Shown piece by piece: positions 9,655-22,345 of a stretch of DNA of 37,402 nt. Position 1 is the stretch's first letter; each line of letters opens with the position of its first letter. The stretch comes from Myxococcaceae bacterium (GTDB taxonomy: Bacteria > Myxococcota > Myxococcia > Myxococcales > Myxococcaceae): contig JADCJJ010000634.1 in NCBI GenBank assembly GCA_020247085.1, positions 1 through 37,402 on the forward strand, given 5' to 3'. The position numbers were made by a program, and so were the translations under genes. The notes under the pieces were generated by a model. That model did no database searches and was not told where the DNA came from. It saw nothing but the letters and a program-made list of their open reading frames with translations.

Positions 9655-10440
9655 TCAGGTCGCGAAGCGGGGGAACAGCCTGAGCGTGTTGCTGTGCAGG
9701 GTGTCGGCCAGCGCCTCGAACGGCTCACCGCGCGCGCTCGACATGGCCCTGGCGATGAGCGGCAGAAAGGCCGGCTCGGAGCGGTGGCCCCGGTGGGGGT
9801 GGGGCGCCTGGTCTGGCGCATCGGTCTCGACGAGCAGCCGCTCTGCGGGCACCGAGCGCAGGGCGTCGAGGGGGCGCCGCGCCTCGGTGAAGCTCACGGG
9901 CCCGGCGAACGAGAAATGGCACCCATGGCGCACGTAGCGCCTCGTCAGGTCGGCCGAGCCCGAGTAGCTGTGCATGAGCAGCCCGGCCTCGGGCACGGGC
10001 TCGGTCTCGAGGAGCTTCAGCAGCTCGGGGTGCGCCCGCAGGCAGTGCACGAGCAGCGGGAGCCGATGCTTGCGCGCCAGCGCGAAGTGGCCTCGGAGCA
10101 CCCGGAGCTGGCGCTCCATCGGAGCGGTTTCCTTCGTCGGGCCATCGAGGCCGCACTCCCCGACGGCGATGGCGATGCCCTGACCGAGCAGGGCGTCGAG
10201 GGCGGCCAGGTGCCGCTCGTCGTCGCGCTCGGCGAGCTCGGGGAGGAACTGCGGGTGCATGCCGAGGCCCACCTGAACGCGGCGTTCGCGCGCGGGCCAC
10301 TCGAGGAGCGCCGCCCAAGTCGCCGGCGCCACGCCCGGCACCACCAGCCCCGTCACGCCCGCGGCCCAGGCACGCGCGAGCACCTCGGCCCGGTCCGCGT
10401 CGAAGCGCGCCATGTCGAGGTGGCAGTGCGAGTCGATCAC
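9655..10440 (-). CDS. tatD: TatD-family metal-dependent hydrolase/DNase
   Basis: TatD proteins are TIM-barrel metalloenzymes with 3'-5' exonuclease activity. All family signatures are present in the 261-residue product: DSHCHLD at the start, GECGLD with a metal-ligand Glu, LLVHCLRAH, LMHSYSGS, and VETDAP near the end, closing with NTLRLFPRFA. The start is GTG, overlapping the stop of the upstream trm112-like gene by 4 bases (GTGA), so the two are translationally coupled. A decayed, frameshifted copy of its 3' half lies at 21.26-21.57 kb in the same orientation. Function is inferred from the family only; the exact substrate is not settled for TatD proteins. Confidence 0.95.
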   Translation of the reverse strand: MIDSHCHLDMARFDADRAEVLARAWAAGVTGLVVPGVAPATWAALLEWPARERRVQVGLGMHPQFLPELAERDDERHLAALDALLGQGIAIAVGECGLDGPTKETAPMERQLRVLRGHFALARKHRLPLLVHCLRAHPELLKLLETEPVPEAGLLMHSYSGSADLTRRYVRHGCHFSFAGPVSFTEARRPLDALRSVPAERLLVETDAPDQAPHPHRGHRSEPAFLPLIARAMSSARGEPFEALADTLHSNTLRLFPRFAT

Positions 10441-10670
10441 GAGAAGTTCGGACGAACGCCCTCGGCCGCGGCCTTCGCCATCACGGCCTGGTGCTCGGCC
10501 TCCGACAGCACCTGCGCTTCGTCGACGAGCATCACCGGCACGCCGTCGTCGACGCGGTACCGGCGCTTGAGGCGTGGGTTGTAGAGGAAGCCGTCGGCGG
10601 CGAAGTACAGCAGCGGGCCCTTGTCCTCAGGGCAGGCGAGGATGTCGAGCAGCGTTGGATCGAGAGCCAT
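10437..10670 (-). CDS. Trm112-family small protein
   Basis: The 77-residue product has the Trm112 pattern: LLDILACPEDKGPLLYF near the start and LVDEAQVL near the end. Bacterial members (YcaR-like) have a partial zinc-ribbon fold, and several act as partners for methyltransferases or sugar-nucleotide enzymes; only one Cys is left here, so metal binding is doubtful. The ATG start at 10670 gives the family N-terminus (MALDPTLLDI); a longer frame upstream crosses the phosphatase pseudogene and is not used. Its stop overlaps the GTG of tatD, so the two form an operon. A divergent truncated phosphatase starts 22 nt away. Only its first ~10 codons are repeated at 21.57-21.60 kb. Confidence 0.9.
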   Translation of the reverse strand: MALDPTLLDILACPEDKGPLLYFAADGFLYNPRLKRRYRVDDGVPVMLVDEAQVLSEAEHQAVMAKAAAEGVRPNFS

Positions 10671-10692
10671 GGTGGCGGCATAGCATCGCGTC

Positions 10693-10943
10693 ATGCCGAT
10701 GGTGGACCTGCACCTGCTCCCGGGCGTCGACGGCGGGTTCAAGACGATGGAGGACGCGCTGGCGATGGCCAGGGCGCTGGTGTCGTGCGGGTTCACCTTC
10801 GCCGCGCCCAGCCCCGCAAGCGGCCCGAGTACGCGAGTCGCGTGGTGTGCCGGGCCCGGCTCGACGAGGTGCGGGCCGCCGAGGCGTGGGTGTCGCGGAG
10901 CCTCGAGGCCCTCGGCAAGCTGGCCGGTGCCAGGGCGCTGCGC
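10693..10943 (+). pseudogene. Decayed PHP-type phosphatase (copy 1)
   Basis: Matches the intact gene at 21.62 kb from its ATG onward. The first residues agree (MPMVDLHLLPGVDGG against MPMVDLHLHLLPGVDDG), but two residues of the metal-binding HLH motif are gone, one Asp is Gly, and a one-base loss after AAPSP shifts the frame. About 410 bases of the middle are then missing: the sequence jumps at 10877 straight to the 3' part of the intact copy (GTGTCGCGGAGCCTCGAGG region), ending near 10943. The gene is therefore broken in at least three ways and cannot make an active product. It is the left end of the decayed band. Confidence 0.9.
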
Positions 10944-11821
10944 GGCATCAGGTGGAGTTCGCTCGTCTTGTTGGCGACGGCGACCGTGCTGCTGGGCCGG
11001 GCGCTCGAGAAGGTGGCCGAGCGCCCGCCGGCCCTCTTCGCGTTGATGTGGGAGATGCGGCTGGGCACCGGACTGCGGCGGACGGCGGCGTTCCCTCTCC
11101 TGGCACGTTCACCTTTGCAGCCGGTTCAGCCAGCGCGTCGCGAAGGGCCCATCGCGTCCCTGCGAGTTGCCCAAGCTCCATCGATTCTCTCCGGTTCACA
11201 AGCGGCTCGCCGAACGTCACCTCCGCCTCAGGTCGGGCGGTGGGCACGGCGAGCGGTGTGCTTCTGGGCGGCGAGTAGCTCAGCGTCTCGTTCGACCTCG
11301 TGCTCTGTCCCTTCGTCGGTGTCGCCGCCATGTGCGCGCCGGAAGGCAAGTCACACGGTGACGCAGGGACCGTGAGTGGACGGTGGCAGCACGAGGGGGT
11401 TGCATGAAGGTCGGGGAGCCAGGCACCTGAAGGCAGAGAGTGCCTCCTGGGCCTGGGCATCGGCGTCAGGTCGAGGGGCAGCAACGACTGCGGCTCAACC
11501 GGGGCCGGGAGAGGCGATGGCCGCCCGAACGCCACGACCGCGCTTCGGTGTCTGGCGGCGGGCCCGAATATCCCCTGGCAATGCATCAGGCACTTGCCGC
11601 GCGGAGGCGTGACGGCACGCGCTGGGTGCCCTCATCACGGCGCTCCTGTGAGGGTACGCCCGCGAGCCCGCGCACCGCGCCGTGAGGGCCGTGTGACCTT
11701 CTGAACAAGTGCCAGCGAATGACGACCCGGGTGGAGCGCCGGGCTCGCGTTCTCCCCCTCGCCTCGTTCGTCAGCACGAAAGGAGCGCTCTGACTTCGAC
11801 ACCGAGCCACGCGAAGCGCCT
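10944..11821. other. Gene-poor stretch, no supported gene
   Basis: About 880 bases without a frame that carries a recognisable protein or a good start. A + frame from 10960 to about 11090 reads like a protein fragment (WSSLVLLATATVLLGRALEKVAE, with a hydrophobic stretch), but has no start and ends in unrelated sequence, so it may be a remnant. The rest has more mixed base composition than the neighbouring genes and no repeats or strong hairpins that I could see. It lies just inside the left repeat copy and probably represents decayed DNA. Confidence 0.5.
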
Positions 11822-14800
11822 TCACCGAATCACCCGCGCCGCCACGCGCCATCTCGTCTCGGGTGCACACCGCTCCTGCCAGATGACGACGAGCGCATCT
11901 TCGATGAACACCAGCCGCGGCCACGCCGCTTCGCAGGCCACGTCGACGTCGTACCGCTCGTCACCCGGAGCGAGGGGCACTGCCCGGGGCGGACCGGGAA
12001 TCGGCGGAACGTTCGCCGAGGCAGGCCCTCCCCAGTACAGGCGCAGGTCGCCATTCTGAGAGAGAGCGAAGACGAAGTTATCCCCGCGCTGAGCGAAGTC
12101 GAATCCCCCGGTGACGGGAGCAGCCAGGCCAATTGGACGCACCGAGTTCGACGCATAGAGGAAGCCGAGGCCGCTCGACGTCGACACGATGGTTCCGCCG
12201 TTGCCGAAGCTGCCATTGGTGTTCTCCGCCGGACGGAACACGGTGAGGCCCGAGAGCGCCCCAGTCCACGGCACGCTGGCCCACGTCGCGGTGGCGGGGT
12301 TCCGGTAGAACAAGGTGATGCCACCGGGCACCTCGACCGAGATGGCTGGCTGCGGCGCAAGCCCGCTGAGGGCGACGACGGTGGCCGAGCGGCTGGTACC
12401 CGTGGCGAGCCGGCCCACCGCCGACGTGACGCGCTCAGCGTTGGTGAACCCACCGGTGCGCGGGTCGTAGACGTCACTGACAACGCCACCGTCGTCGACC
12501 CACGCGCTGCGCACCTCGAAGCCAGGGCCGCGGTGCAGCTCCCCTTTCGAGACGAACGTCGACCACACGCCAGCCGACGAGCGCCGCGCGTACCGCAAGC
12601 CGCCGTCGGTGACCTGCATGGCGACGAGGAGCTGATCCTGCGCGTGCGTCGCGCGATGGCCCTCGGGCGTCAGAGCGGCCAGCTCGAGGCCCGCCAGCGG
12701 GGTCGACGACGCCGGCAACGGGCATGCGGGGGAACACGAGCCAGCCGCGCCGAGGGGGTCGAGCGAGAACTCGACGAGGTTGCTCCCTTCGCGCGCGACC
12801 AGCGCAAAAGGAACGGGCGGCGAGGCGCTGCGGTGAAAGCCCGACTGCACGTCCCACGGAAGGTGGCCGGCCGTCACCCCGACGGGGCGCGGGTTTTCGA
12901 AGTCCAACGACGAGACGTAGGGCCCCAGCACCTCACGCTGGATGAGCGCCGTCGAGACGACAGTCACGTTCGGCGCGATGTTGGCCGGCGTCGCGGTGTC
13001 TCGCAGCGGTTCGAAGGCGGCGTAGGCCCAGCTCCCACAGGCCTGGTTCGTCGTCGGGCTCACGGCAAGCGAAAGGTAGCCTCCGTCGAACGACTCGAAC
13101 ACCTGGTTCATTCCGGGGCACAGCGAGGTGGAAAAGGCGTTCGCGGGGACGAGGGGCTCCGACGTGCGCAGCAGCATGCCGAAAGGGGAAACCCGGAGTG
13201 ACGCACTGTTCGGCCTCGAGGCGAGGAGGAAGGGGAGCTCGCGGTCGTTGAGCAGCAGCGACACGGTGGACGTCAGGGTGAGCGGGCTCAGTGGTGGCTG
13301 GGCGGTCGCCGTCACTACGCAGCTGGCAGTGACGCTGGCGCCGACGATGCGAGGCACGATGAAGTCCATCACGCCACCGTCGCTGGTGTTGACGACCGAC
13401 ACGCCCGAGCAGGCCCAGGTGAACGAGACGCGCGGGGTGGGCACCGTCGTCGTCACCGTCGGGACGATGCGCTGGGGCAGGGTGAGTGGCCCGACCCACG
13501 AGACCGTGGGCCCGCCCACCACCTGCGCCGCGAGGCTCCAGTTCGATGGGTTGCCGGGAACGACGGTGTAGCTCTGCGTGGCAGCGCCCGACGACACGCC
13601 GGCGGCGTTGCCGACGACGAGCGACACGGTGACGAGCGCAGCGGGTTCGGAGACGGCCCGCGGCGGCAGCGTGAGCATGGCCACGCCGCCATCAGGAACG
13701 AGCACGGCGCCCGGCGCCGAGGCGGTGACGCTCCAGTCAATCGACGTCAACAACAGCCCGCCATCGTCGAAAGACGTCGACCGCAGTTCGATGACGTCAC
13801 CACCGAAAAAGACGCCGCCGTCTGGCTCGAAACGAGCGGTTGGCACCCGCGACACGGCGACCCGAGCCACGGCGGAGTTGGCGCTCTCACGACCCAGGGC
13901 ATCGCGCACCACGAGGGCGACCTCGACGACCGTGCCCAGCACCGTGGGCGCGGTGAGCTGTGCGCTGTGCGCGGCTGGCACGTTGTTGGGCGTGACGGTG
14001 AGTGACTGATTTGGCGGCAGCACCGTCCACCGGTACGAGAGGGGTTGGAGCCCGGTGCTCCGAGACCCGTCGAGCATCGCAGGGGCCCCAGGCGCCACGA
14101 CGACGAGTGAGCCCACGACGGCTACCGGCAGCGGCACCCCAGCATCGAGGGCGCCCGCATCCGGCGTGCCGGCGTCTGGCAGCCCGGCGTCTGGCAGCCC
14201 GGCGTCTGACGGCCCGGCGTCTGGCAACCCGGCGTCTGGCAACCCGGCGTCTGGCAACCCGGCATCTGGGAGCCCAGCATCGACACCACCATCGAACCTG
14301 GGCGGCTGCAGTGGCCCGGCCGAGCCCGAGCCTGCCGTCAGTTGAAACGGGCCGACGGTCGTCCTCGGTGCATCGATGACGACGTTGCGAACGAGGAGCG
14401 GCGCGAAGCCCGCCTTCTCCAATGCGAGGAAGGTGAGGCCCACCGGCTGCTCGGTGAAGGTGAACGAGCCCTCGGCGTTCGACGTCGTCGTCACCTCGCC
14501 GACGCCGCGCACCATGCGCACGGTCACACCGTCGAGCGCCTCGCCCGTGTTCGAGACGACCCGTCCGACGAGGGTGGCGACGCTGAGCGCGCTGGTGCGG
14601 CGGAGGGTGAAGGGCGCCAGCCGCAGTTCCTGCCCGCCCGACGCCGTCACTTCGAGGCTGGTGTTCTCGTAGCCCGGCGCGCTGGCGGCAACCGTCGAAT
14701 CACCTTCGGGTACACCTGCCAGCACGAACGAACCGTCGTCGCTGGTGAAGGTGATGGGGCGCTCGAGCGGAGTGAAGACAGCGATGCCTCCGTGCCCGCC

Positions 14801-15232
14801 AGCGGTGGCGACGTCTTCACGCCGGGCGACCCCGATGACGGCGGCCGGCCGCCCCAGCACGAGCGTGCCGAGGTTGACGTCGCGGCCGAAGCCCGCGCCG
14901 ACCGCTTCGAGCGAGATGATGCGGGAGCGACGCTCCGAGGGGTCGGTCCCCGGGAACTCGATCAGCACCCGCCCGGCCAGGGCGGTGAGTTCTCCGAGAC
15001 GAAAGTTGCCCTCGTCGTCGGCGCGCGTCGCCAGCGTGCTGCCGAGGAGCTGAATGGTGGCTCCAGCCGCCGGCACCTGCGCGGCGCTGCCAGACCGAAC
15101 GGTGACGAGGGTGGCCCGCAGGCTACCTGGCTTCAGCTCGCGACGGGGTGGCACCGACGTGTCGAGACACGACGCGAACGACAGCAGCGTCAGCACCGCT
15201 GAGCCCCGCCACCCACCTCGTGCGCGAACCAT
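11822..15232 (-). CDS. Large surface lipoprotein with carboxypeptidase-regulatory-like domains
   Basis: 1136 residues. A signal peptide ends in LLSFASC, with Cys22 as the likely lipidated residue. Three CarboxypepD-regulatory-like beta modules follow (about 38-110, 130-205, 213-300), each with a GATIQLLG- or GVTVRMVR-type core and an EGSFTF turn. Then comes a Pro-Asp-Ala-Gly linker (about 314-365, PDAGL repeats), PKD/Ig-like domains (about 370-620), and a ~500-residue C-terminal part rich in beta-strand and Gly/Thr/Ser turns, with a propeller-like look. No catalytic motif. The start ATG has a good ribosome site (GGGGAGG, 9 nt upstream). Likely anchored in the outer membrane and exposed; the binding partner is unknown. 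Free-standing, with no linked operon. Confidence 0.9.
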   Translation of the reverse strand: MVRARGGWRGSAVLTLLSFASCLDTSVPPRRELKPGSLRATLVTVRSGSAAQVPAAGATIQLLGSTLATRADDEGNFRLGELTALAGRVLIEFPGTDPSERRSRIISLEAVGAGFGRDVNLGTLVLGRPAAVIGVARREDVATAGGHGGIAVFTPLERPITFTSDDGSFVLAGVPEGDSTVAASAPGYENTSLEVTASGGQELRLAPFTLRRTSALSVATLVGRVVSNTGEALDGVTVRMVRGVGEVTTTSNAEGSFTFTEQPVGLTFLALEKAGFAPLLVRNVVIDAPRTTVGPFQLTAGSGSAGPLQPPRFDGGVDAGLPDAGLPDAGLPDAGLPDAGPSDAGLPDAGLPDAGTPDAGALDAGVPLPVAVVGSLVVVAPGAPAMLDGSRSTGLQPLSYRWTVLPPNQSLTVTPNNVPAAHSAQLTAPTVLGTVVEVALVVRDALGRESANSAVARVAVSRVPTARFEPDGGVFFGGDVIELRSTSFDDGGLLLTSIDWSVTASAPGAVLVPDGGVAMLTLPPRAVSEPAALVTVSLVVGNAAGVSSGAATQSYTVVPGNPSNWSLAAQVVGGPTVSWVGPLTLPQRIVPTVTTTVPTPRVSFTWACSGVSVVNTSDGGVMDFIVPRIVGASVTASCVVTATAQPPLSPLTLTSTVSLLLNDRELPFLLASRPNSASLRVSPFGMLLRTSEPLVPANAFSTSLCPGMNQVFESFDGGYLSLAVSPTTNQACGSWAYAAFEPLRDTATPANIAPNVTVVSTALIQREVLGPYVSSLDFENPRPVGVTAGHLPWDVQSGFHRSASPPVPFALVAREGSNLVEFSLDPLGAAGSCSPACPLPASSTPLAGLELAALTPEGHRATHAQDQLLVAMQVTDGGLRYARRSSAGVWSTFVSKGELHRGPGFEVRSAWVDDGGVVSDVYDPRTGGFTNAERVTSAVGRLATGTSRSATVVALSGLAPQPAISVEVPGGITLFYRNPATATWASVPWTGALSGLTVFRPAENTNGSFGNGGTIVSTSSGLGFLYASNSVRPIGLAAPVTGGFDFAQRGDNFVFALSQNGDLRLYWGGPASANVPPIPGPPRAVPLAPGDERYDVDVACEAAWPRLVFIEDALVVIWQERCAPETRWRVAARVIR
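14140..14284 (-). repeat. 15-bp minisatellite encoding (PDAGL)n linker
   Basis: About nine to ten imperfect copies of a 15-base unit (ggcgtctggcagccc as read on +), coding for DAGLP-type pentads inside the large lipoprotein. Every unit is a multiple of three, so expansion or loss keeps the frame. Confidence 0.9.
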
Positions 15233-15469
15233 CGGTATGGACCTCCCCCGGAATGGGACTGCGCTGAGCAGCGTCCCCCATCATTTGAAGGTTCGCGGGA
15301 GTTACCACTCTTGTCCAGCGCAACGCGAGCCGTTCGCACCTGAGACAGGTGGCGGAGGCTCCTCGCCTCGAGCCGGTCGATGCCCACGCGGGTCGAGACG
15401 CCAAGCAGCCAGGGCGTGGAGGTGAACGGGTCGACGTTGCCAGCCCCGAGCTCGCGTAGAACAGTCTCG

Positions 15470-15658
15470 ATGAGCACCCTCGCCCGGCTCGTCTTCACGA
15501 CCCTCGTCACCTGCTCCTGCCTGGTGCTCTCGGCTGACGGAGAAGCCAAAGACAGCGGGAAACCGAGGCGAGGGGCAAGAGGCGGTGCAGGGCGTCCTGG
15601 CGCGGGGACCGGCGACCCGAAGCGCCCAAGCCCCCCACGCTCGAGTCTCAAGCGCTGA
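15470..15658 (+). CDS. Possible small secreted basic protein
   Basis: 62 residues: an N-terminal signal-like hydrophobic stretch (LARLVFTTLVTCSCLVLSADG), then a short Arg/Gly/Pro-rich tail (RRGARGGAGRPG). The Cys pair inside the hydrophobic part could be a poor lipobox. The family is not recognised and the ribosome site is weak, so this may be a chance frame in a gene-poor stretch between the lipoprotein and the pentapeptide gene. A longer start at 15380 would add 30 unlikely residues. No partner gene is visible. Confidence 0.35.
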   Translation: MSTLARLVFTTLVTCSCLVLSADGEAKDSGKPRRGARGGAGRPGAGTGDPKRPSPPRSSLKR

Positions 15659-15765
15659 ACCGCGCAGTCGTTGTCGTGTGACCTGTGTGTGGCGCTATCA
15701 ACGTACGGCGATTCACTGGTTGCGCCTGAACCTCCGCCGCGCGCGGGGCGCGACCTCGAGGGTGA

Positions 15766-16929
15766 ATGAAGACGTATCTCCAATCCTGGGCAGAGTTCGG
15801 CGGAGAGGGGCAACCTCCTGTGTTGTTGGGGCGCATGCCGCGGCACGACGAAGTCGAGGGCATCGATCTCTTTCGGACGCAGCTCACCGGCGTCGCCCTC
15901 GAGCGCGTCACGCTGCCGCATCTGTTCGCGTGCCCCTCACTGCTGAGCCGCTCGTCGTTCGTGAGCGCAGACCTGCACCAGAGCGTGATCACCTGGTGCG
16001 ACGTCGAACACGTCGACTTCTCGAGCGCCGATCTTCGAGAGAGCGACCTGCGCAACAGCCAGTTCGTCGCCGCTCGCTTCGAGAACGCCCGTCTCGAACA
16101 GTGCGATCTGCGGGGCTCTTCGTTTGATGGCTGCGACTTCAGCGGGGCGCGGCTCGATGGCGCGATCGTCACGAGAGAACAACTGGGTACGCTCTCGCTG
16201 TCGGTGGTTCAGCGGCAGTCGCTGAAGGTCGACACCGCGGACGACGCATCGGGCGGCCGAGACCGCTCACGGCACGACGAGCACGATCATCGCGGTGATG
16301 TTGTGGCTCATGCGATCGGCCTGTTGGGCAGGGCGGTTGACGACGTTGTTCATGTACCCAAGCTCGGACTGCCACGCCGCGACCTTCACGTTCGGTCCGG
16401 CGAACGCGCGGTTCTGATCGAACCCGGCGACGGGCCCCCGCTCCACGGAGTTCAAGGTGACGAAGAGCTCGTCGAAGACCGCGAGGCCCAAGGGCGAGTC
16501 GTGCCCGAAGCGGGTCACCGCGCGCACCATGTGCCGCAGCCGGTACGAGGGCCCGCCGGTGTCGGCGATGAAGCGCTCCTCGGTGCGGAGCCGGTTCACC
16601 AGGCTCACCACGCCGAACTTCTGAACTCGGACGTCGAGCGGCAGGGTTGCGCCTGGGGCCCGCACTGGCAGGCCGAGAACGAGACGAACAACGGGAGGAC
16701 AACTCGTTGGGCCGACGCGCGTGCGGGCCGAAACCTGGGTGAAGTCCACTCGGCGCGGGCAGCCCGCGCTCGTCGCTCTCACCGCGCGAGAATGCGACTG
16801 GCGCGTCGGGACTCCACGCACGTCACTCAGGTTCTGGAGAGCCGCAGAATCAGGCGCTCCGCGAAGTCGATGGTGGCACGCAGCTGGCCGTCGTCCATGT
16901 TCGACCAGGTATCCGACGGCCGGTGGTAG
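15766..16929 (+). CDS. Pentapeptide-repeat protein with run-on C-terminus
   Basis: 387 codons in one frame. Residues about 60-145 are A(D/N)LxX-type pentapeptides (VSADLHQS, VDFSSADLRESDLRNS, RLEQCDLRGSSFDGCDFSGARLDG), which form a right-handed quadrilateral beta-helix; such proteins often bind or mimic other macromolecules, but no target can be read here. The first ~50 residues are an ordinary globular lead. After about residue 165 the text becomes His/Asp/Arg/Glu-rich and reads the antisense of the DUF2490-like remnant at 16267-16680, then of the peptidase 3' end. The real protein probably ended near nt 16260 and the native stop is lost. The start has GAGGG a few bases upstream. Confidence 0.65.
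   Translation: MKTYLQSWAEFGGEGQPPVLLGRMPRHDEVEGIDLFRTQLTGVALERVTLPHLFACPSLLSRSSFVSADLHQSVITWCDVEHVDFSSADLRESDLRNSQFVAARFENARLEQCDLRGSSFDGCDFSGARLDGAIVTREQLGTLSLSVVQRQSLKVDTADDASGGRDRSRHDEHDHRGDVVAHAIGLLGRAVDDVVHVPKLGLPRRDLHVRSGERAVLIEPGDGPPLHGVQGDEELVEDREAQGRVVPEAGHRAHHVPQPVRGPAGVGDEALLGAEPVHQAHHAELLNSDVERQGCAWGPHWQAENETNNGRTTRWADARAGRNLGEVHSARAARARRSHRARMRLARRDSTHVTQVLESRRIRRSAKSMVARSWPSSMFDQVSDGRW
16267..16680 (-). pseudogene. 3' fragment of a DUF2490-like outer-membrane protein
   Basis: The minus-strand reading shows the features of the C-terminal half of DUF2490 proteins: a LRTEERF strand, YRLRHMVRA, an ELFVTLNS strand, then FDQNRAFAGPNVKVAAWQSELGYMNN and a final hydrophobic strand ending in HNITAMIVLVVP. 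These are beta-barrel-like strands of a predicted outer-membrane protein. The N-terminal part, with the signal peptide, is missing and the upstream frame looks non-coding, so I call it a truncated remnant. It lies 147 nt downstream of the M28 peptidase stop on the same strand and overlaps the run-on tail of the pentapeptide gene. Confidence 0.6.
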
Positions 16930-18053
16930 TGCCGGGGCGCGCCGATGTCGGGGTCGATGCAGGTCAGTGACATCGACGGGAACCCACGCACGAGGAAGGG
17001 CAGCGCGTCGGTCGCGCCCGTCGGCACCACATACGTCGTCACCGGCGGAACGTCGGGTCGTGCGGCGTTTTCCTGCGCGACGGCGTCGACGAGCGGCTTC
17101 GGAATCGGGTGTGGCCACAGCTCACCCTCTTCGAGGATGCGCAAGGTCCCGTTCGAGAGGGTGTCGAGGCCGAGCACGATGGTGTCCGAGGGGCTCCACT
17201 CGCCGCTGGCGACGATCTGCTCGGCCAGCCGCAACGCGCCGCCCGTGCCGGCCTCTTCGGCGCCCGAGATGACGATGACGAACTCCACGTCGTCGGGCAG
17301 CGTGGACTCGAGCCGATGCGCCAGCTCGACGCTCCCGCTGCAGCCCGAGAGGTTGTCGCAGGCCCCGGGCACGACGTGGTTTCGCAGCACGACGTCGAGG
17401 TTGAAGAGCGCCACGAGGACCGCGGGGATCGTCACCACGCCACGCAGCCAGCCTGGCGCGCTCCACACGGACAGCCCCGCGAGCAGCTCGAGCGCCGCCA
17501 TCGCGGCCACCGTGGCCGTCGCGAGGCCCAACTGCTTCTTGAACCACCCGAGCCCCGGCGGCGGCTGCTTCGTCGCAACCTTGATGATGGCCGGGGTGAA
17601 GAGGAGCCCGGTGTATGCGGCATCGGCGTGGGCCACGATCACGAGGCGCTTGCGGCGCGTGGTTCGCGCAGGCCGAATGGCGAGCAGATTCTGCGAGGTG
17701 ATGCGGGGCATCAGGCTGCGCAGCAGCAGGCCCTTTCGGGTCGACTCGAGGGTGTAGGACAGCGCGACGAGGGCATGCAGGCCGGCCCCCACGAAGGGCG
17801 CGGAGAAGCCCACGCCGGTGGCGAGCACGGCGAGGCCGAAGTGGAGCAGCAGGCTCGCGTAGAGGCTCTGGGTCCAGGTGAAGGGCCGCCAGGCGAGGCG
17901 GTATCCCAGGGACTCGAGCTCCTCGCCGAGCATTGTCTGGGCGGCCTTCTCCGTGGGCGTCCCGGTGAGCCGTCGGGGTCCGAGCGCTTCGAGCGCGCGG
18001 ATTCGGTCCATCGGGGTGAGGCGCGGCTTCGTCGCGTCAGGTGACGCAGTCAT
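16827..18053 (-). CDS. Membrane-associated M28-family metallopeptidase
   Basis: M28 peptidases are dizinc aminopeptidases and related enzymes. The 408-residue product shows the metal ligands in order: His142 (VAHADA), Asp233 (GACDNLSG), Glu266/267 (GAEEAG), Asp297 (LGLDTLSNG) and a late His (RHYHRPSDT). Between the first and second ligands are two or three hydrophobic segments (about 65-105 and 175-220), so the enzyme is membrane bound with the active site on one face. The start is ATG at 18053; the preceding 180 bases lead into rnpB on the other strand. Nothing else in the region suggests a substrate. The gene seems intact amid decayed neighbours. Confidence 0.92.
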   Translation of the reverse strand: MTASPDATKPRLTPMDRIRALEALGPRRLTGTPTEKAAQTMLGEELESLGYRLAWRPFTWTQSLYASLLLHFGLAVLATGVGFSAPFVGAGLHALVALSYTLESTRKGLLLRSLMPRITSQNLLAIRPARTTRRKRLVIVAHADAAYTGLLFTPAIIKVATKQPPPGLGWFKKQLGLATATVAAMAALELLAGLSVWSAPGWLRGVVTIPAVLVALFNLDVVLRNHVVPGACDNLSGCSGSVELAHRLESTLPDDVEFVIVISGAEEAGTGGALRLAEQIVASGEWSPSDTIVLGLDTLSNGTLRILEEGELWPHPIPKPLVDAVAQENAARPDVPPVTTYVVPTGATDALPFLVRGFPSMSLTCIDPDIGAPRHYHRPSDTWSNMDDGQLRATIDFAERLILRLSRT

Positions 18054-18231
18054 CGTGTCGGAGACCTTACCGTGCCTCGGCAGCTCCGTGGGCTCGTGTT
18101 CTCGGCGCCGCGGGTCTCGCGCGATTTCGCGGGGTCACAGCGGGCGCCATCCTCCGTTGACCGGCCAGCGTCGGATTCTCGAGGGCCGTCATGCGGCCGC
18201 CTTTCTGACGTCGAGGTGGTTCGGCGCTCCT

Positions 18232-18628
18232 CGCTGGAGCAGCCCGGGTGAACGCCGGCCACGGCAGGACGGGGTGGCGGAAGGAAAGTCCTGGCACCGC
18301 AGGGCAGGGCGCTGGTGAACGGCCAGTCGGCGCAAACCGCAGGACAGTGTCACAGACAACAGACCTCCTGTTCCGCAAGGGGCAGGGAAGGGTGAACCGG
18401 TGCGGCGAGAGCGCACCGCGCGCCTGGAAGCAGAGGCGGCACGGCAAACCCCACCCGGTGCAAGAGCCAACAGGGAAGCGTTGCTCCGAACGAGGTGACC
18501 CGGGCGGCCCGCCCGATGCTTCCCGGTTGCACGCTGTCGAAGGCGTCGGCAACGGCGCCTCTCGATGAATGTTCGCCGCCCCCGGGAAACCGGGAAGACA
18601 AGACCCGGCTTACAGGGCTGCTCCAGCG
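18232..18628 (+). ncRNA. rnpB: RNase P RNA
   Basis: The catalytic RNA of RNase P, which trims the 5' ends of tRNA precursors. The type A conserved regions are all present in order: GGAAGGAAAGTCC with GGGCAGGG (18288-18325), AGGGTGAACCGGTG (18388-18402), GGCAAACCCCACCCGGTGC (about 18443-18461), and ACAAGACCCGGCTTACAG (18598-18614). A perfect 14-bp P1 helix joins CGCTGGAGCAGCCC (18232-18245) with GGGCTGCTCCAGCG (18615-18628), which sets both ends. The length of about 397 nt is normal. T-rich sequence (gttttcc) follows the last helix. It lies inside the decayed band and its 3' end is 25 nt from the convergent anti-sigma-like gene. Confidence 0.95.
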
Positions 18629-18652
18629 TTTTCCTTGTCGCCATGGCCACCG

Positions 18653-19003
18653 TCAGTAGCTGCTGCCAAGCAACAAGCCAACCCGAGCCCCGAAGGGGGT
18701 CCCAGACTCCGAGGGCGATGAGGGCGCGAGCATCAGCGTGAACGAAGCGGTCACCGCCGCCGGAACCGACAGCCACCACCACCGTTGCCACCACGGCGAT
18801 GGCCGGCCTCGCGCCCGGATTCGCGGGACGACGAGGGTCGCGGGCCGCTGGTCGACGAACGCTCGCGCCTGGGCCTTCAGGCGCTCCACCTGCTCCGTGC
18901 ACACGGGGCACGAGGCGAGGTGTTCTGCGACGCCGTCCACCGGTTCTCCGACCGGGAGGCGCTCCACGTCGATGGTGCGCAGATGCGGGTGAACGCGATT
19001 CAT
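18653..19003 (-). CDS. Anti-sigma-factor-like protein with zinc-finger motif (possibly truncated)
   Basis: 116 residues. The N-terminal half has an anti-sigma zinc-finger-like motif (EHLASCPVC, two Cys), then a linker, a hydrophobic segment (about 70-92, WWQRWWWLSVPAAVTASFTLML) and a short tail. This looks like the small membrane-anchored anti-sigma proteins that in myxobacteria follow an ECF sigma gene. ATG at 19003 overlaps the stop of the sigma fragment (ATGA) and has a good ribosome site (AGGGGG). The product stops soon after its membrane segment, 25 nt from the end of rnpB, so the usual C-terminal domain may be lost. It is likely non-functional in the absence of its sigma partner. Confidence 0.6.
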   Translation of the reverse strand: MNRVHPHLRTIDVERLPVGEPVDGVAEHLASCPVCTEQVERLKAQARAFVDQRPATLVVPRIRARGRPSPWWQRWWWLSVPAAVTASFTLMLAPSSPSESGTPFGARVGLLLGSSY

Positions 19004-19119
19004 GCTCGTCCCCCTGCCTGCTCCCATCGGCTCTTGAACTCCGTCGAGAACCGCTCGAGCTTCTTTCCAACCGTGCGCCTGGATAACCCGCAGTGATGGG
19101 TGAGCTCGTACTGCGTCAA
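19000..19119 (-). pseudogene. C-terminal fragment of an ECF sigma factor
   Basis: The 39 codons before the anti-sigma ATG read LTQYELTHHCGLSRRTVGKK then LERFSTEFKSRWEQ, which is the sigma region 4 helix-turn-helix end of myxobacterial ECF factors. Its stop TGA overlaps the next ATG by one step (ATGA), the arrangement of a coupled sigma/anti-sigma pair. Region 2 and most of region 4 are missing: the frame upstream hits a stop at 19120 and before that reads the end of the neighbouring membrane protein. So this is the stump of a sigma gene removed by deletion. Confidence 0.7.
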
Positions 19120-19892
19120 TCACTCGAGGACGGCGTCACCCGACTGCTTCGCCTCGACGCCGAAGGCGTTGTAGTCGGTGCGCCAGGACGAGCTCAGGCG
19201 GCGAGTCGCTACGGGGACCCGGTCGGCACGGCGTCGCAGCGTCAAGGTCGCGCCGTACTCGCCTCGAACGGCGCCCAGGTCTGTCGCGAACGCGGCGAGC
19301 AGCGCTGCGGGAATGGCAGCCAACAGGCCGATGCTCATGCCGAAAACCGCGGAGAGCCGGTCCTGTCCCCGGCTCGAGTCGATGGCGTGGCCGATGCCAG
19401 CCGCAGCCCCAGCCAGCAGGATTCCGGTCTCCAGGGCGAGGCCCAAAGGCAGTCCTCTGCCGAATCCGTAGAGCTCCTTCGCGACGAGGTCGACCTCGAG
19501 CGAATAGACGGCCGGACCGTCGATCGCTCCGAGGGCCGTCGCCATGGACAGCGTGCTCCGAACCCGGTCCGTCAGTTGGGCCTTGAGTTGGGCGGTGTCC
19601 GCTCCTCGGCGGCGCAGCGGGCGGAGTGGACGACGTGGGCTCTGCGACGGCCGCCCCAGGGATGTCGAAGGACGTCGACGCCAAAGGCGTGCAGGTGAAG
19701 GGAAGCCCAGTCCAGGCGGCGGGTGGGCCTGCGAGGGCGCGGTCGCGAGTGGTGCTGGAGGGACGAGTGCTGGAGCGCCTCGTACTCGTCCAAACGCCAC
19801 GGGGCGTCTTCGTCGGTGAAGCCATTGCGGGCCTGGCGCAAGACGCGCCGGAGCATGGCCTCGAAGTCGGCGTCGTCGGGGGGGGAACTCAC
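19120..19892 (-). pseudogene. Frameshifted two-span membrane protein
   Basis: Three frames carry consecutive parts. The first (GTG at 19892, after AAGGTG) reads PDDADFEAMLRRVLRQARNG and WRLDEYEAL. The second (around 19770-19620) reads a Pro/Ala-rich linker (FTCTPLASTSFDIPGAAVAE). The third reads TAQLKAQLTDRVRSTLSMA and then two membrane segments with ALETGILLAGAAAGIGHAID and MSIGLLAAIPAALLAAF, ending at 19120. The joined text is a plausible protein with a cytoplasmic N-terminus, linker and two spans, so two frameshifts have likely broken it. Sequencing error cannot be excluded. It lay upstream of the sigma/anti-sigma pair and was probably cotranscribed. Function unknown. Confidence 0.55.
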
Positions 19893-20061
19893 CACCTTGC
19901 GGTCTTGCGTCCACAGCGCCTGAAGGAAGCAGCGCATGGAGGTGCGGCGTCACTTGAAGCCCAAGGTCCAGCTTCGTCGACACCGAACCTCGCCTGCGCG
20001 CAGGAATTCAATCCGGCACTCGTGCTCTCGCAGGAGCCCTTCGACGCAGGCCCGGCGACCG

Positions 20062-20910
20062 TCAGGGGACGAGCGTGATCGCGAACATGATGTTGGTCAG
20101 GCTGGCGACTGGGCCGCGGCTGGCGGTGCCCGCGAGGAGCTCGCTCGAGGACAGCCGCACGACAGTCCGCGGAGCAATCTCGTCATCGGAAGGGAAATCG
20201 GAGTCGAAGACCCGAAATGCGAAGCCCGTCGTGGAGAGGACCTGGGCCGTGAGAACACAGGAGGAGCTGAGGGTCCAGACCGGCATCAACGAGTCCCGGG
20301 CGATGTCGGTGGAACTGGTGATCGCGGTCGCCGTCGCCGGACAGTACAAGTCGACGAATGGGTCGGGGCCGGAGCCGGGGTCCCAAGCGGTTCCAGCCGG
20401 CCGGTTCGGTGCAATCACCCCACGACTGGCTCGAATGAGCCACCGTGACGACGGGTCCAGAGCGGGGCCTCCGCCTCCGACGGGTGCTCCCCCTCCCGTC
20501 GCGGAGCCGCCGCCCGTCGCGGAGCCGCCACCCGTCGCGGAGCCGCCGCCCGTCGCGGAGCCGCCACCCGTCGCGGAGCCGCCGTCCGTCGCGGAGCCGC
20601 CGTCCGTCGCGGAGCCGCCACCCGTCGCGGAGCCGCCACCCGTCGCCGCGCCGCCACCCAAACCCGCGTTGGAGAGGATGCACGCTCCAAGCGAGCACAC
20701 TTCAAGAAGCCCGCAGGCTTTACATGTTTCTCCTCGTGTCCCGCACCGCGCCGAGGACGTCAAGATGACGCACTCCCCGGAGAACTCATCGCAACACCCG
20801 TTGCTGCACATCGTGGTCGAGCACGGTTGGCGCACCGAACCACAGCTGCTGACGAACGTTGCCAGCGTGAGGCTAACTGCCAGGGCCATCGCGAAAGCCG
20901 AGGGTCTCAT
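20062..20910 (-). CDS. Lipoprotein with Cys-rich module, (GGGSAT)n linker and C2-like domain
   Basis: 282 residues. A signal peptide ends in TFVSSC (Cys23 likely lipidated). A Cys-rich knob follows at about 30-77 with CSNGCCDEFSGECV and CGLLEVCSLGAC, spacing as in many myxobacterial surface proteins. Then a linker of GGGSAT repeats (about 84-146), and a C-terminal domain (about 152-282). The last part has the pattern of a C2 domain: DPFVDLY early, then PVWTLS and FRVFDSDFPSDDEIAP, where the Asp residues could bind calcium. The start at 20910 (ATG before RPSAFAMAL) is chosen because it begins the signal peptide; a longer frame exists upstream. The same Cys-rich module occurs in the CAP lipoprotein at 36.3 kb. 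Confidence 0.88.
   Translation of the reverse strand: MRPSAFAMALAVSLTLATFVSSCGSVRQPCSTTMCSNGCCDEFSGECVILTSSARCGTRGETCKACGLLEVCSLGACILSNAGLGGGAATGGGSATGGGSATDGGSATDGGSATGGGSATGGGSATGGGSATGGGSATGGGAPVGGGGPALDPSSRWLIRASRGVIAPNRPAGTAWDPGSGPDPFVDLYCPATATAITSSTDIARDSLMPVWTLSSSCVLTAQVLSTTGFAFRVFDSDFPSDDEIAPRTVVRLSSSELLAGTASRGPVASLTNIMFAITLVP
20493..20660 (-). repeat. 18-bp minisatellite encoding (GGGSAT)n
   Basis: About nine imperfect copies of an 18-base unit (cgtcgcggagccgccgcc as read on +), six codons each, in the linker of the lipoprotein. The even spacing without spacers excludes a CRISPR array. Confidence 0.9.
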
Positions 20911-21256
20911 GCTGGCTTGACACCCGGCCAAGGCCAGGAGCGCAGTCTTCAGGTCATCGACTGTCGGGTGGCCGAACTGGAGCAGGCGCACCGCGGCCGT
21001 CTTGTGAGTGGAGTGTCGACGGCGGACGGTTTCCGACTTCGCCTGACGGTCGAGGTCGAGCGGCGGCACGGCCACCGACGAGCTGTTCGCCGCCGACCCT
21101 GCGCCGGTTCAGCTCCTGCGTCTTCGTGGGCTTCGGCGGTGGCTCGTTCTTCGTCTGGCGCCAGGACTCGGCGTCGAGGTCGACGGTGTGCAGGTGCTGC
21201 GAGAAGCGGTCGCCGAGTGCGACGACACGGGCGGCAGCGGTGAAGACGGTGCCCCC
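20911..21256. other. Gene-poor stretch next to the right repeat copy
   Basis: A minus-strand frame crosses this region (ALGDRFSQHLHTVDLDAESW and KNEPPPKPTKTQEL, about 21100-21230) and continues the decayed tatD remnant, but it is not recognised and has no start of its own. It may be the 3' end of another lost gene. No promoter or hairpin stands out. Confidence 0.45.
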
Positions 21257-21602
21257 GTGCAGGGTGCCGGCCAGCGCCTCGAACGGCTCACCGCGCGCGC
21301 TCGAGATGGCCTTGGCGATGAGCGTCAGTAAGGCCGGTTCAGAGCGGTGGCCCCGGTTGGGGGGGCGCCAGGTCTGGCGCATCGGTCTCGACGAGCAGCC
21401 GCTCTGTGGGCACCGAGCGCAGGGCGTCGAGGGGGCGCCGCGCCTCGGGGAAGCTCACGGCCCAGCGAACGAGAAACGGCGCCCATGGCGCACGGAGCGC
21501 CTCGTCAGCTCGGCCGAGCCCGAGCAGCTGTGCATGAACAGCCCGGCCTCGGGCACGGGCTCGGTCTCGGGATGTCGAGCAGCGTTGGATCGAGCACCGT
21601 GG
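21257..21602 (-). pseudogene. Fused trm112/tatD remnant (copy 2)
   Basis: Read on minus from 21602, the text starts with VLDPTLLDI, the first codons of trm112 without its ATG, then jumps to the middle of tatD (ETEPVPEAGLFMHSCSGSAE), and continues through RSVPTERLLVETDAP to SARGEPFEALAGTLH in three different frames. At least two frameshifts separate the pieces, and the 5' half of tatD and most of trm112 are deleted at about 21569. The remnant ends at 21257 without the family NTLRLF end. This is the counterpart of the intact pair at 9.65-10.67 kb. Confidence 0.9.
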
Positions 21603-22290
21603 CGGTGGCATAGCATCGCGTCATGCCGATGGTGGACCTGCACCTGCACCTGCTCCCAGGCGTCGACGACGGGTGCAAGACGATGGAGGACGCGCTGGCG
21701 ATGGCCAGGGCGCTGGTGTCGCTCGGGTTCACGGTCGCCGCGCCCAGCCCCCACAACCGGCCCGAATATGCGAGCCGCGAGGTGTGCCTGGCCCGGCTCG
21801 ACGAGGTGCGGGCCGCGCTGGGCGCCCAGGGCGTCGCCCTGGCGCTCGAGGTCAACGCCGAGAACTTCTTCCTCGACGAGGCGCTGCTGTCGGCGCTCCC
21901 CACGCCCGCCTCGAGGCGCCTGGGCGCTGCCGGCAAGTACCTGCTGGTCGAGGCGCCGTACACCTCGCCGCTGCCGCTCCTCACCGACGTCATCTTCCGC
22001 ATGAAGCTCAAGGGCGTGACGCCGCTCATCGCCCACCCGGAGCGGTGCCTCGAGTTCGAGCGGAAGGGGCGGGCCGCCGAGGCGGTGCAGGCCGGGGCGC
22101 TCCTGCAGCTCGACGTCGGGGCCCTCATCGGCCGCTACGGCAAGACGGCGCAGAAACTCGCCCGCCAGTTCGTCGACGACGGCCTGTATGCGGTGGCCGC
22201 GACCGATCTGCACTCCCCCGTCGGTGCCGAGGCGTGGGTCTCGCAGAGCCTCGAGGCGCTCGGCAAGCTGGCCGGCGCCAGGGCGCTCAC
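21257..22290 (+). repeat. Right copy of the direct repeat
   Basis: Matches 9694-10009 (to 21569), 10640-10877 (21570-21816) and 10877-10943 (about 22224-22290) in the same orientation. Together with the left copy it brackets about 10.3 kb including rnpB. Confidence 0.9.
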
Positions 22291-22345
22291 GCAGCTCACC
22301 GAGGCCAACCCGGCTCGCCTCCTCGCCGGGCAACCCCTCGCCTGA
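21623..22345 (+). CDS. PHP-type tyrosine-protein phosphatase (CpsB/CapC-like)
   Basis: CpsB/YwqE-like enzymes are PHP-fold metal-dependent phosphatases that remove phosphate from tyrosine and often control polysaccharide synthesis. The 240-residue product opens with the metal-binding motif MVDLHLHLLPGVDDG, and has later ligands in EVNAENFF, IAHPERC, and a final ATDLHS. Length is typical. There is no capsule gene cluster in view, so a role in polysaccharide control is inferred from the family. The start ATG matches the start of the decayed copy at 10693. The next gene begins 50 nt later, so cotranscription with the LPG-synthase-like gene is likely. Confidence 0.92.
   Translation: MPMVDLHLHLLPGVDDGCKTMEDALAMARALVSLGFTVAAPSPHNRPEYASREVCLARLDEVRAALGAQGVALALEVNAENFFLDEALLSALPTPASRRLGAAGKYLLVEAPYTSPLPLLTDVIFRMKLKGVTPLIAHPERCLEFERKGRAAEAVQAGALLQLDVGALIGRYGKTAQKLARQFVDDGLYAVAATDLHSPVGAEAWVSQSLEALGKLAGARALTQLTEANPARLLAGQPLA

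Follow-up and report, generated by a model that had tools for sequence, protein, structure and literature searches.

How did a myxobacterial genome come to hold the same three genes, tatD, trm112 and a phosphatase gene, twice in direct order around about 11 kb of other DNA, and is that intervening band, which contains an RNase P RNA gene (rnpB), its own? The window, that is the whole stretch of 37,402 nucleotides analysed here, is contig C595 of a 7.36-Mb Myxococcaceae assembly in 641 contigs. The direct repeat around the band had been described in an earlier note made from the sequence alone, and it is borne out: the left copy (9694-10939) and the right copy (21257-22287) align colinearly and in the same orientation, with E-values down to 7e-135. 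Aligning the two segments, a check which that note had proposed, gave 93% identity in the tatD part, 89% across the trm112 start and the 5' part of the phosphatase gene, and 94% in the phosphatase 3' part, and also placed the breakpoints. Both copies evidently descend from one segment of ~1.65 kb, running from the tatD 3' end through trm112 to near the phosphatase 3' end. The right copy lacks the counterpart of left 10010-10639 (630 bp), a loss across short CGAGGA-like repeats that removed the greater part of tatD and trm112. Missing from the left copy is the counterpart of right 21817-22225 (409 bp), within the phosphatase gene. Deletion between short repeats would account for either loss, with one or two such events sufficing for the 409 bp.

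The damage is divided between the copies as the earlier note had read it. On the left, tatD (9655-10440, minus strand; TatD_DNase, Pfam PF01026, 1e-63; 261 aa) and trm112 (10437-10670, minus strand; PF03966; 77 aa, with an ATG start) are intact and open, next to a phosphatase pseudogene (10693-10939, plus strand) which besides the 409-bp deletion has a smaller one of 6 nt and a 1-nt frameshift. On the right, the CpsB/CapC-type phosphatase gene (21623-22345, plus strand; PF19567, 1e-28; 240 aa) is intact and is the only full-length one in this genome, while trm112 and tatD are reduced to a fused pseudogene (21257-21601, minus strand) which has the 630-bp deletion, frameshifts and an ATG>ACG change at the Trm112 start. 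Across the two segments each of the three genes has one open copy. Changes were polarised with five congeners (G001-G005) as outgroups. Over 312 aligned tatD sites the right copy has 16 derived changes and the left 2; in the phosphatase gene the right copy has 4 and the left 14 (Fisher p=1.3e-4 for 16:2 against 4:14). Each copy has decayed mainly in the gene where the other has not, the pattern of reciprocal loss after duplication, and substitutions piling up in each lost gene support the earlier idea that a duplication was followed by each copy losing what the other kept. Because the derived changes are so one-sided by gene, the copies were almost the same when they arose, and the reading that one of them came from another species is rejected on the same ground. 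As in known cases of complementary degeneration after duplication, each copy lost the part that the other kept and substitutions gathered in the lost genes, but here whole genes of a three-gene segment went, not regulatory subfunctions. The locus is a clean natural case of duplication with complementary loss, in which direction and relative timing can be read from one contig.

Could the repeat, or the second rnpB described below, be an artefact of a chimeric assembly or a mixed bin? The assembly is of metagenome type, with its 641 contigs and a contamination estimate of 4.2%, and the question is fair. However, no assembly error yields copies that are ~5% apart and have decayed in opposite genes, the genome has a single full-length phosphatase gene and no empty-site contig, and C238, the contig with the second rnpB, matches the genome by divergence and composition. 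We consider an artefact very improbable.

The genus to which the source genome belongs comprises few species, and its relatives there are environmental MAGs. Gene order and the presence of the band were compared in the near relatives, as the earlier note had advised. In all five congeners that have the whole locus (G001-G005) the order rhomboid-tatD-trm112-phosphatase-flippase is single and uninterrupted, and the band is absent from the locus in all five; G006 agrees from the phosphatase on, at which point its contig ends, and G002 and G004 have ~0.7 kb extra between rhomboid and tatD. Since the congener locus is single, uninterrupted and without the band, we take the band to be an insertion in the source lineage. 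Each copy is native on its outer side, the left one towards the rhomboid gene as in the relatives. Two observations had been named in advance as telling against a duplication: the same gene order without a repeat in relatives, and two segments that are unrelated paralogues with long separate histories. The first is indeed what the congeners have, together with an insertion that is new here, whereas independent paralogy did not emerge.

Does the rnpB inside the band make it native? The earlier note had reasoned that, rnpB being normally single and essential, the band might not be simply foreign. That argument fails, as searching the genome for a second rnpB, which the note had itself suggested, found an intact one on contig C238. 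Two RNase P RNA genes of type A are thereby present: the one on C238 scores 286.9 bits, that in the window (18236-18628, plus strand) 224.5. In a survey of first 30 relatives and then 96 family genomes, more than one rnpB was found in no other genome, and the window copy is the weakest of 94 matches in the 96 family genomes. The C238 gene lies between a PD40-repeat gene and FtsK, as in the sister G003, without the M28 peptidase of the G003 locus; in the window the order is the start of a PD40 gene, the peptidase, rnpB and then unrelated DNA. C238 is 83% identical to G003, where the window flanks are 80-85% identical to it, and its tetranucleotide correlation with the window flanks is 0.89. Because both its divergence from G003 and its tetranucleotide pattern match the flanks, C238 fits the same genome, and its rnpB is the intact copy at the genus-native locus. 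With that copy in place, we reject the view that the band is native on account of the rnpB it holds. The case carries a caution: a single-copy essential gene in an island is no proof that the island is native, as the real copy is here elsewhere.

The window copy is most likely a pseudogene, as judged from the features it has lost. Among 209 positions that are invariant in 14 other family copies, 10 are changed in it against 1 in C238; it has more non-standard, broken helix pairs in the family alignment; and the -10-like GTGCTA found upstream of 7 of the 7 other genus copies reads GTGGTT. Neither the conserved core nucleotides nor the promoter that mark a functional type A RNase P RNA have been kept. 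It is still full length and scores far above the Rfam cut-off, so that one might think of a gene which functions or is retained for a different role, but in view of these changes and of the lowest score in the family we find this highly improbable. The essential rnpB of the cell would be safe, since the window copy is the second, broken one and an intact one lies elsewhere. Where the window copy came from is a separate matter. A recent copying from C238 is not supported, the window gene being 85.5% identical to C238 and 89.3% to G003; where C238 and G003 differ, it sides with G003 at 17 positions and with C238 at 2. Its 5' half resembles G003, and part of its 3' half (18480-18628) resembles G001, G004 and G005. 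Possibly it is a recombinant or stems from an unsampled lineage. RNase P RNA pseudogenes have been described for animals (PMC2996960), likewise as extra copies without promoter signal and with changed conserved positions, next to one good copy; the window copy differs from those in being of bacterial type A and in lying inside a mobile-element mosaic. For bacterial rnpB duplicates no direct precedent turned up in the literature searched, which, its coverage being partial, is weak evidence. The locus is an instance of bacterial mobile DNA carrying an rnpB pseudogene, and the use of rnpB as a species marker could pick up such a second, misleading copy.

What is the rest of the band made of? Its GC content is 69.2% against 72% in the flanks, its genes have a GC3 of 75-90% against 93-95%, and the tetranucleotide correlation between band and flanks is 0.68; its joins are sharp, with unrelated pieces abutting. 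The band is compositionally alien, and it is a mosaic. It begins with a 140-bp fragment of a PMT_2-like membrane gene (10940-11079, plus strand) copied from the C345 locus of this same genome, to which it is 91% identical against 78-82% to other species; 9 of the 12 differences are derived in the window copy, and PF13231 is found in C345. Directly abutting it is a fragment like C164 of G003 (11075-11340, plus strand; 72% over 267 bp). Such direct adjoining of unrelated fragments could be produced by end joining of several loose DNA pieces at a double-strand break, an explanation to which we give almost no credence, since no Ku gene was found in this genome, which is 100% complete by marker estimate. 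The C345 stretch at the junction, overlapping the next fragment by 4-5 bp, would also suit microhomology-mediated template switching, in which a stalled fork copied other loci and resumed upstream, duplicating the segment and leaving a patchwork between its two direct copies, an arrangement typical of replication-based template switching. However, the pieces nearest to other species (95% to G004, and an rnpB nearer to G003 than to C238) could not be copied from this chromosome, and the band composition is foreign, so we regard template switching as unlikely.

Further to the right lies the 3'-end remnant of an IS91-family transposase gene (11351-11631, minus strand; 73% by blastx against residues 360-418 of an intact 511-aa transposase with PF04986 and PF14319 on G004 C38), followed by an open 1136-aa lipoprotein-like gene with CarboxypepD_reg domains (11822-15232, minus strand; PF13620, 7e-22) which has a homologue in G005 C313 at 64-76% nucleotide identity. 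At 15537-15612 there is a solitary IS91-type element end, a dispersed repeat with 16 other copies in this genome, several of which adjoin transposase genes or remnants. The next piece (15707-16623), with a pentapeptide gene and a truncated DUF2490 gene, matches G004 C3:179544-180460, near groEL in that genome, over 917 bp at 95%; other congeners match at 72-78% and in the DUF2490 part only. Orthologues of the two species are ~75-80% identical, and the 917-bp piece is best read as a recent transfer within the genus. It is followed by a piece colinear with the G003 rnpB locus (16638-18632; 78.6% over 2028 columns), comprising the PD40-repeat gene start, an open 408-aa M28 peptidase gene (16827-18053, minus strand; PF04389, 1e-14; 81% aa identity to G003) and rnpB up to its T run. 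A second M28 peptidase gene, 74% identical in aa to that of the window and open but for one in-frame TAG, occurs at C566:19143-20294; it is not syntenic with the relatives' copies, and we do not claim the peptidases as a third reciprocal pair. Beyond rnpB lie a second IS91-family transposase remnant with an internal deletion and frameshifts (19591-19961, minus strand; blastx to an intact 442-aa transposase on C233 with PF04986, 1.7e-19) and an open lipoprotein-like gene with 18-bp tandem repeats and a weak C2 domain (20062-20961, minus strand). These tandem repeats (20453-20695) are of a low-complexity type common in the genus. The band ends with a truncated dispersed repeat (21014-21255; 84% over 245 bp) which is cut off by the right copy and in C248 adjoins an IS1595-family transposase gene (PF12762). 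No tRNA gene was found in the window, and a tRNA-targeted island was dropped as a reading.

As to its kind the locus is ordinary, an insertion associated with mobile elements and accompanied by complementary loss of genes; what is unusual is how well it is documented, and the curiosity is its rnpB pseudogene. Taken jointly, the repeat, its absence in congeners, the polarised reciprocal decay, the second intact rnpB, the lost features of the window rnpB, the mosaic and the IS91 remnants are held with high confidence; from them we infer that there was a circle, that IS91 transposition had a part in it and that the event was single. The explanation that we favour, and to which we would give about an even chance, is capture by an IS91-type circle, Campbell integration through the shared segment and then reciprocal loss. 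The original locus would have been rhomboid-tatD-trm112-phosphatase-flippase. A circle would have arrived that combined a ~1.65-kb copy of tatD-trm112-phosphatase with a mosaic of further pieces and was probably the work of rolling-circle (one-ended) transposition by an IS91-family element. Homologous recombination between its copy of the segment and the resident one would have inserted it in Campbell fashion, giving segment, band and segment in direct order. With two gene sets present, each gene would be free to go in one copy, so the left one would drop the phosphatase and the right one trm112 and tatD; the incoming rnpB beside the M28 peptidase would be redundant and decay, while the native rnpB kept working.

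The layout is in keeping with this: at the band edges, the end of the left copy and the start of the right copy coincide with the limits of the shared segment, and the locus is single and uninterrupted in the five congeners. The earlier note had offered a Campbell-type circle or a large duplication; the layout fits the first of these, and the doubt on foreignness that it had attached to rnpB is dropped. As in Campbell-type integration, a shared segment is directly repeated on both sides, although no replicon or transfer genes were recognised in the band. A plain insertion-sequence insertion would duplicate only a few to ~15 bp of its target, whereas the flanking repeat here is ~1.65 kb. IS801, of the IS91 family, mobilises neighbouring DNA, >40 kb of it in one system, and forms circles (PMC6354349), and since IS91-type remnants lie in the band, elements of this family are plausible makers of the circle. 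With one-ended transposition by IS91, IS801 and ISCR elements the band shares the HUH Y2 transposase (Y2_Tnp) with the IS91 zinc-binding domain, represented by the two remnants as fragments only, a dispersed terminal sequence downstream of the transposase, and captured genes and fragments of several origins. It differs in that remnants are all it has, in the 1.65-kb chromosomal direct repeat around everything, and in its edges: the 140-bp gene fragment on the left and the truncated IS1595-associated repeat on the right are not IS91 ends, and the terminus-like repeat at 15537-15612 sits inside the band, at neither edge. In the flanks of twelve end copies, compared by eye, no consistent GAAC/CAAG tetramer was recognised.

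The main rival to the captured circle is that the 1.65-kb segment was first duplicated in tandem, and that mobile elements and captured pieces were inserted over time between the copies, followed by reciprocal decay as above. Bacteria often undergo tandem duplication, the final layout would be identical, and the remnants of several different mobile elements suggest repeated insertion. On the other hand, the inserts abut both segment ends exactly, with no plain tandem junction seen, and the extent of decay is similar throughout: 5.1% per site in the right tatD stub, 5.7% in the left phosphatase, 5.0% private changes at genus-invariant columns in the window rnpB and 6.4% (9 window-derived changes in 140 bp) in the fragment from C345. 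A tandem start is possible, if clearly a second choice. Since decay is so alike (~5-6%) in the repeat copies, rnpB and the 140-bp fragment, a single event is suggested; with such small numbers this is compatibility and no proof. The differing affinities of the pieces (own genome, G004-like, G003-like) may mean that the mosaic was built stepwise and is older than its integration. A more daring version, which we put forward as speculative, is that a single capture put together fragments from several congeneric genomes and from the cell's own, and that the product integrated via its own 1.65-kb homology arm, carrying rnpB and the peptidase along; if true, the locus would preserve, with a date, a myxobacterium's uptake of DNA from multiple sources. 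Elsewhere in this genome, on C158 and C338, paired 76-bp IS91-type ends lie ~2.4-2.5 kb apart in direct order and enclose a rhomboid-like gene or a radical-SAM-like reading frame; these pairs are possibly passenger units of one-ended transposition.
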